The notes beneath the pieces were generated by a model. The model had not been told where the DNA came from, searched no databases, and worked only from the letters and a program-made list of their open reading frames with translations. Of a stretch of DNA of 43,187 nt, positions 20,450 through 21,476 are shown in pieces (position 1 is the first letter of the stretch; each line of letters begins with the position of its first letter). Source of the stretch: an uncultured SAR86 cluster bacterium (GTDB lineage Bacteria > Pseudomonadota > Gammaproteobacteria > Magnimaribacterales > Magnimaribacteraceae); the NCBI GenBank assembly GCA_902532015.1, contig CACAGI010000011.1, forward strand, positions 1-43,187. Reading direction: 5' to 3'. The translations under genes were made by a program, and so were the position numbers.

Positions 20450-20477
20450 TTGACATTTTTTACAAGTACTGTATATT
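20450..20477 (+). promoter_or_regulatory. Sigma-70 promoter overlapping the LexA box
   Basis: A consensus -35, TTGACA at 20450-20455, is followed after 16 nt by TATATT (20472-20477), five of six matches to the -10 consensus. The -10 falls inside the LexA palindrome, the classic layout of an SOS promoter blocked by LexA. Transcription would start near 20484. Confidence 0.6.
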
Positions 20478-20486
20478 TATACAGTA
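20467..20486. promoter_or_regulatory. LexA-binding site (SOS box)
   Basis: TACTGTATATTTATACAGTA is a perfect 9-2-9 palindrome and fits CTG-N10-CAG. It differs from the E. coli consensus TACTG(TA)5CAGTA at one central base. It covers the -10 element and ends on the first base of the ATG at 20486, so LexA binding would block the promoter. It supports a gammaproteobacterial-type LexA regulon. Confidence 0.85.
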
Positions 20487-20674
20487 TGAATGATATATAC
20501 AAAAAAAATAAGCCTTCCGGGCAACCAATGGCTATAAGAAATTTAGGTGCAGTTCAAATTGAAAGTTCTTTCCATTTTATGTGGGTAGATAGACTAATAG
20601 CCTCGATGTACGTAGTTTTGTCAGCTAGTTTAATAACTATTTCTCTAGCTTTAATGTTTGGTTTATCAATATAA
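20486..20674 (+). CDS. SOS-regulated small membrane protein, 62 aa
   Basis: A 62-residue product starting MNDIYKKNKPSGQP, then AIRNLGAVQIESSFHFMW, and ending in one TM helix (about residues 38-58, SMYVVLSASLITISLALMF). It directly follows a near-consensus LexA box and a TTGACA/TATATT promoter. With the predicted transcription start at about 20484 the ATG at 20486 would be essentially leaderless; ATG 20528 (48 aa) is an alternative, with no clear Shine-Dalgarno. A TTG further upstream is the -35 box and is rejected. I recognise no family. Known SOS-induced small membrane proteins include the TisB toxin and the SidA and DidA division inhibitors; an analogous role is inference. Confidence 0.65.
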   Translation: MNDIYKKNKPSGQPMAIRNLGAVQIESSFHFMWVDRLIASMYVVLSASLITISLALMFGLSI

Positions 20675-20726
20675 AATTAAAATTTATTAAGAAATAGGTT
20701 AGTCTAGATCCTCATTTAAAGGATCT

Positions 20727-21476
20727 ATGGAAACATATAATAATATCCTCTTTGTTTGGCTAGGCATTTCAATAATTGCCTTTATAACTCTGCTTTTTAA
20801 AAGCGCTCCTTACGGAAGACATTCAGTCTCTTCATGGGGCTCGTCAATGTCTTCGAGATTAGGCTGGATCTTAATGGAATCGCCTACAGTTTATTTAATG
20901 ATTCTTTTCATGATTCTCTTTAATAGCTCATTGGGAGTTGTTGAGGCTGTATTTATCCTAATTTGGATGGTGCATTATGTTCATAGAAGTTTTATATGGC
21001 CCCTTAGAGCAAAATTAGAAGGAAAAAAAATGTCAGTAGTAATTATTCTTCTGGCCATATTATTTAATTTTGTGAATGTTTATATTCAAGGATCATGGAT
21101 ACTTATATTTGGAAGTTATTCAATTGAATGGCTTTGGTCTCCTTTTTTTATCATTGGTCTTTCAATATTTTGCATAGGACTTTTTATCAATATTAAGTCA
21201 GATAATATTTTGATCGAACTTAGAGAAAAACATGGGAGTGGTTATCATATTCCTGAAGGCTTTTTGTTTAATAAAATTAGTAGTCCAAATTATTTTGGAG
21301 AGATTTTAGAATGGTTGGGTTGGTTTATTATGACTCTTAGTCCTGCAGGATTAGTCTTCTTTATCTGGACTATGGCAAATTTAATTCCTAGAGCTAAATC
21401 AAATCATGAATGGTCTTTAAAGAATATAGAAGGTTATCCAACAGATAGAAAAAAAGTAATCCCTTTCTTGTATTGA
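20727..21476 (+). CDS. DUF1295 / steroid 5-alpha-reductase-like membrane protein
   Basis: A 249-residue membrane protein with about six TM segments. The C-terminal third carries the conserved core of the 3-oxo-5-alpha-steroid 4-dehydrogenase/DUF1295 superfamily: IPEGFLFNKISSPNYFGEI, LEWLGWFIMT and the terminal NHEWSLKNIEGYPTDRKKVIPFLY motif (given in part by position, residues 226-249) with the Y..DRK..IPF pattern. Members reduce double bonds in steroids or related lipids with NADPH. It follows the LexA-controlled gene by 52 nt with no terminator between, so it could be read from the SOS promoter. It precedes the acyl-CoA dehydrogenase pair by 84 nt, hinting at lipid or sterol metabolism. Confidence 0.8.
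   Translation: METYNNILFVWLGISIIAFITLLFKSAPYGRHSVSSWGSSMSSRLGWILMESPTVYLMILFMILFNSSLGVVEAVFILIWMVHYVHRSFIWPLRAKLEGKKMSVVIILLAILFNFVNVYIQGSWILIFGSYSIEWLWSPFFIIGLSIFCIGLFINIKSDNILIELREKHGSGYHIPEGFLFNKISSPNYFGEILEWLGWFIMTLSPAGLVFFIWTMANLIPRAKSNHEWSLKNIEGYPTDRKKVIPFLY

Follow-up and report, generated by a model that had tools for sequence, protein, structure and literature searches.

A LexA-boxed gene for a small membrane protein in one family of SAR86 bacteria as a candidate SOS checkpoint

The present study describes a gene for a 62-residue membrane protein that, judging from its operator, almost certainly belongs to the SOS regulon of a SAR86 cluster bacterium (Gammaproteobacteria). The gene lies on the forward strand of contig CACAGI010000011.1, and the whole 43,187-nucleotide (nt) stretch analyzed is hereafter called the window. 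Its product represents a real, new family of SOS-controlled small membrane proteins that we assigned to no named family. We place the gene at the core of the SOS regulon in one SAR86 family, with the binding of LexA predicted from the box, and we propose a delay of cell division as the likeliest role of its product. SAR86 bacteria, a widespread and uncultured group, have small genomes, and few bacteria of the sunlit surface ocean are more abundant. No paper describing SOS control in SAR86 was found in the literature searched. The main comparison set comprised 61 SAR86 genomes, namely, 35 of the source's own family (f1, seven genera) and 26 of three sister families. Counts of boxes and spacings are based on the 24 full-length homologues.

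An earlier note, made from the letters of the window alone, described a near-consensus 9-2-9 SOS box that overlapped a TTGACA/TATATT promoter and a reading frame starting on the last base of that box. Each of these observations held. The box, TACTGTATATTTATACAGTA, is an exact 9-2-9 palindrome and is one base off the Escherichia coli LexA consensus TACTG(TA)5CAGTA. The TTGACA and TATATT elements, separated by a 16-nt spacer, match a sigma-70 promoter at 11 of 12 positions, with the -10 element lying inside the box. The palindrome was conserved in relatives: 21 loci carry TACTGTATATTTATACAGTA and three carry TACTGTATAAATATACAGTA, the two being exact reverse complements of each other, as a symmetric site bound by a protein would lead one to expect. 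In all 24 loci, the ATG begins on the last A of the box, placing the box at -19 to +1. This overlap was kept across the seven genera; the flanks diverged except for the TTG at -36 to -34, which belongs to the -35 element. A chance palindrome was ruled out by its rarity and by the sites found at umuD and recA. At up to three mismatches, the 20-mer occurred on average 0.02 times per shuffled window, and the strict pattern TACTGTN8ACAGTA, for which 0.13 occurrences were expected by chance in the source genome, was found three times.

Scans for further LexA sites, using the strict pattern or allowing up to three mismatches from the consensus, map the strong boxes of the regulon, and they located the same box upstream of umuD, recA, and lexA. 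Sites within three mismatches in the source genome, an incomplete assembly, were those of umuD, recA, and the 62-residue gene only. Throughout f1, the genes adjoining a strict box were umuD, recA, lexA, and the 62-residue gene. The source assembly, which is 66% complete, lacks lexA; the gene is present in congeners and is preceded by a box in one of them (G002). The LexA profile TIGR00498 scored above its cut-off in 49 of the 61 genomes, congeners included; in the source assembly, its only match was the UmuD-like one.

The gene is under purifying selection. Its frame runs from an ATG at 20486-20488 to a TAA at 20672-20674, and the length of the homologues is fixed at 61-62 residues. The ratio of nonsynonymous to synonymous substitutions (dN/dS) was 0.04-0.18 in most close pairs, with a maximum of 0.26, and mismatches at codon positions 1, 2, and 3 were 0.33, 0.21, and 0.52, respectively. 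A spurious open reading frame (ORF) was ruled out by the homologues, the codon-position bias, and dN/dS. The position at which the interval of the earlier note begins, 20450, corresponds to nothing more than the frame's first TTG codon (74 residues). The earlier note had weighed a start at 20528 (M15) against that at 20486. The later start was ruled out: codons 1-14 are strongly constrained, the overlap of the ATG with the box is invariant, and the most conserved part of the protein would be lost. The promoter match predicts a transcript start at approximately 20484-20486, approximately 7-9 nt past the -10 element. Since this element lies inside the LexA box, the mRNA is probably leaderless or nearly so. 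Synonymous conservation was 0.83 in codons 1-6 and 0.34-0.74 elsewhere in the gene, which is consistent with a constraint at the 5' end of the mRNA.

The protein was present in 25 of the 35 f1 genomes (24 full-length) and in none of the 26 genomes of the sister families. When 203 genomes of the order were searched with a profile, the same set and one weak partial match were recovered. Among 369 genomes sampled from the class, only three weak matches, inside long frames, were found besides the source genome. We did not accept the weak matches in the class (E 0.005-0.008) or that in one f2 genome (0.0016) because they lay in long or interrupted frames and covered the hydrophobic half only. The record titles of the homologues read SAR86 cluster bacterium or uncultured Gammaproteobacteria. 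As far as searched, the family is restricted to one SAR86 family. A true absence from the ten f1 genomes without a match was not supported: in two (G014 and G032) the contig ends within the locus, and the assemblies of the other eight lack the orthologue of the neighboring acyl-CoA dehydrogenase (best matches, 34-38% identity). No genome with an intact locus lacking the gene was found. A phage or mobile origin was ruled out because viral contigs and phage records gave no match and the chromosomal neighborhood is conserved.

The earlier note also described a polar N-terminus followed by one C-terminal transmembrane helix, and hydropathy and AlphaFold2 both agree. AlphaFold2 predicted a single helix over residues 15-61, confident from approximately residue 31, and few residues follow the transmembrane segment. 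Conservation is among the strongest in residues 1-18, whose net charge is +1 to +5; residues 19-32 are variable, and a juxtamembrane motif, W-x-D-R-L-I/V, is conserved. W33, D35, L37, and Y42 are invariant, in addition to the residues of the N-terminal peptide listed in Table 1. The positive-inside rule suggests a cytoplasmic N-terminus, which would make this a tail-anchored protein. The earlier note had recognized no known SOS-induced small membrane protein in it, and searches of Pfam, NCBIfam, PHROG, and PDB chains yielded no convincing match. The weak Pfam matches to Imm58 (0.035) and DegQ (0.044) and those in PHROG were not accepted.

Table 1. Features of the SOS-controlled locus in the window.
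Feature	Position	Strand	Basis
-35 element TTGACA	20450..20455	+	11/12 promoter match with the -10 element; TTG at -36..-34 kept in 20-23 of 24 loci per base
LexA operator (SOS box) TACTGTATATTTATACAGTA	20467..20486	+	Kept in 24/24 homologous loci, 3 as exact reverse complement; common to SAR86 umuD, recA, and lexA
-10 element TATATT, within operator	20472..20477	+	Promoter match
Gene for the 62-residue SOS-controlled small membrane protein, including stop	20486..20674	+	25 family genomes, fixed length, dN/dS 0.04-0.26
Conserved basic N-terminal peptide, residues 1-18 (MNDIYKKNKPSGQPMAIR)	20486..20539	+	Invariant M1, D3, N8, P14, M15, and A16
Predicted C-terminal transmembrane helix, residues ~38-60	20597..20665	+	Hydropathy; AlphaFold2 helix with predicted local distance difference test score ~90; almost no charged residue

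We propose that the protein is a tail-anchored SOS division inhibitor working in a similar manner to SidA and DidA, and we give this an even chance. LexA on the operator would cover the -10 element and the start codon. Activated RecA would then trigger the self-cleavage of LexA, RNA polymerase would start at the site predicted above, and translation of the mRNA would begin directly at the AUG at its 5' end. The protein would insert into the inner membrane via its C-terminal helix with the N-terminus inside, and would bind a division protein of the membrane, our best guess being the septal FtsW/FtsI/FtsN complex, and so delay cell division. The conserved N-terminal peptide may make a second, cytoplasmic contact. 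The protein would thereby fill the place of SulA during DNA repair. The operator, the promoter match, the start codon, selection, the predicted transmembrane helix, and the lack of a detectable SulA are read from the sequence; leaderless initiation, topology, division inhibition, and the target are what we infer.

A division inhibitor is our best single guess because SulA was undetected and because SOS division inhibitors other than SulA are small single-transmembrane proteins: SidA (29 residues, acting on FtsW), YneA (FtsW), SosA, and ChiZ (PMC4211646; PMC13396833; PMC9578287). SulA of E. coli represents the functional slot, a LexA-controlled division checkpoint in Gammaproteobacteria. However, SulA acts on FtsZ, and its domain (PF03846) matched neither the 62-residue protein nor any of the 61 SAR86 genomes, with a positive E. 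coli control. SidA of Caulobacter crescentus is likewise SOS-controlled, very small, and anchored in the inner membrane by a single helix, in a lineage not using SulA, and our proposal adds division inhibition as a shared property. In contrast, SidA is alphaproteobacterial and, at 29 residues (PMC4211646), too short for a 35-residue cytoplasmic part; this comparison was made by description. DidA of the same species has 71 residues and one transmembrane helix, is induced by damage independently of SOS, and targets FtsN (PMC4211646). It also blocks division after DNA damage; however, it has short cytoplasmic and periplasmic parts, whereas the SAR86 gene has a LexA-type box and the helix of its product is at the extreme C-terminus. 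No homology to SidA or DidA was seen via Pfam, NCBIfam, PHROG, or PDB, libraries not confirmed to contain either, and the SAR86 protein was compared with the two by their descriptions. YneA of Bacillus subtilis, ChiZ, and SosA are single-transmembrane, SOS- or damage-induced division inhibitors. YneA has an N-terminal transmembrane segment and an extracellular LysM domain, and ChiZ has a similar topology (PMC13396833); this arrangement is reversed in the SAR86 protein, with its presumably cytoplasmic N-terminus and C-terminal anchor.

Several points weigh against division inhibition. A strongly diverged SulA could escape the PF03846 search, and the protein showed no convincing similarity to a known division inhibitor in the libraries searched. 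Hardly any of the chain extends past the helix, and outside the helix it is the presumed cytoplasmic side that is most strongly conserved, unlike in DidA and YneA, which act partly through their extracytoplasmic parts. The conservation of the transmembrane helix showed no significant one-sidedness (p 0.2-0.3). Moreover, the sister SAR86 families do without this protein.

The earlier note had proposed a new SOS checkpoint or toxin. The SOS box and the conserved gene bear out its SOS part, and, of its two candidates, comparative evidence leans toward a checkpoint or inhibitor. A toxin similar to TisB of E. coli, depolarizing the inner membrane and leading to dormancy, would also be SOS-controlled and small with a single hydrophobic helix; however, we regard it as improbable. 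TisB is a type I toxin controlled through a long, structured 5' untranslated region (UTR), a standby site, and an antisense RNA (PMC11575346), and a transcript starting 0-2 nt from the ATG, if correctly placed, leaves no room for such a 5' UTR. The SAR86 protein, at 62 residues, has a conserved hydrophilic half under purifying selection and no Pfam match, and no Rfam RNA family was found nearby, although a new antisense RNA would be outside Rfam. An inhibitor is favored over a depolarizing toxin because SulA was undetected, the N-terminal peptide and W-x-D-R-L are under purifying selection, and a TisB-type 5' UTR would not fit.

Families f2 and f4, which lack the 62-residue protein, carry another, unrelated small SOS gene, found in approximately 80 genomes by profile. 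Its product has 54-77 residues (loci L167-L196 in f2 genomes and L165:919-1083 in the f4 genome G043). In the f2 loci read, 2-13 nt separate the LexA box from the ATG that follows it; in G043, the first base of the ATG is part of the box. This protein has no evident transmembrane helix, a conserved DKxSxKKxLAFKYFN, and, in most cases, a C-terminus such as QLEFSF, QLELPF, or QKDLF, which we take to resemble a sliding-clamp-binding motif. It had no convincing match in Pfam, NCBIfam, or PDB, and AlphaFold2 predicted three short helices and a tail. It is possibly an SOS replication inhibitor. Unrelated proteins thus appear to occupy the same regulon slot in different SAR86 families, a membrane protein in f1 and a putative clamp-binding protein in f2 and f4, and we hypothesize two routes of cell-cycle arrest, division versus replication. 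The start codons of two f3 lexA loci (L108 and L121) also begin on the last base of the LexA box, and starts that are embedded in the operator, and possibly leaderless, may be a more general design of SAR86 SOS genes.

The soluble f2/f4 protein under a similar box raises another explanation: the slot may serve replication instead of division, and the f1 protein may be an SOS accessory factor that is anchored in the membrane and leaves division uninhibited, its N-terminal peptide bringing a factor of repair, replication, the nucleoid, or proteolysis to the membrane. This role would suit the parts that are most strongly conserved, namely, the presumed cytoplasmic peptide and the juxtamembrane motif. 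However, the gene neighborhood (DUF3604, steroid-dehydrogenase-domain, and acyl-CoA dehydrogenase genes) suggests no partner, and we consider an accessory factor rather unlikely, although far less so than a toxin.

The neighborhood itself consists of a divergent DUF3604 gene and, downstream, the steroid-dehydrogenase-domain gene (20727-21476) and acyl-CoA dehydrogenase genes. It is conserved, and the next gene begins 53 nt past the small frame, as might be expected if the box mainly served the divergent gene, or the downstream genes by read-through, with the small frame as a minor leader peptide. We find this very hard to credit. The spacing is fixed to the ATG of the small gene in 24 of 24 loci, the small protein itself is under strong selection, the next gene differs or is preceded by an extra ORF in some genera, and a hairpin covers its start in the source genus. 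This hairpin, TAGATCCT-CATTTAA-AGGATCTA (20705-20727), takes in the first base of the steroid-dehydrogenase-domain gene's start codon, as well as the likely ribosome-binding site before it, and shows two compensatory pair changes among four congeners. Hairpins were also predicted near the start codon of this gene in many other f1 genomes. The extra ORF, short and basic (similar to NPVAKHAGKFNKAKVFKDKTKYSRK), separates the small gene from its downstream neighbor in genera g2, g3, and g5 (L008, L014, L022, L023, and L025) and was not seen in the source genus. Separately, G007 carries a second fragment of the 62-residue gene at a contig end (L125, G007:C49), approximately 29 residues and close to the g2 type, which represents contamination or a second copy.

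With the division inhibitor as our working proposal, we tentatively suggest a broader one: these C-tail-anchored proteins may form a new family of SOS checkpoints, produced from an operator-embedded leaderless mRNA and acting via a conserved cytoplasmic peptide, and SAR86 families may swap SOS effectors while the LexA circuit stays. That a lineage-specific gene has kept its operator unchanged in a regulon with so few strong boxes argues for an important response to damage. If our proposal is correct, the families of a single order would rely on unrelated small proteins for their SOS checkpoint, or for a substitute for it.
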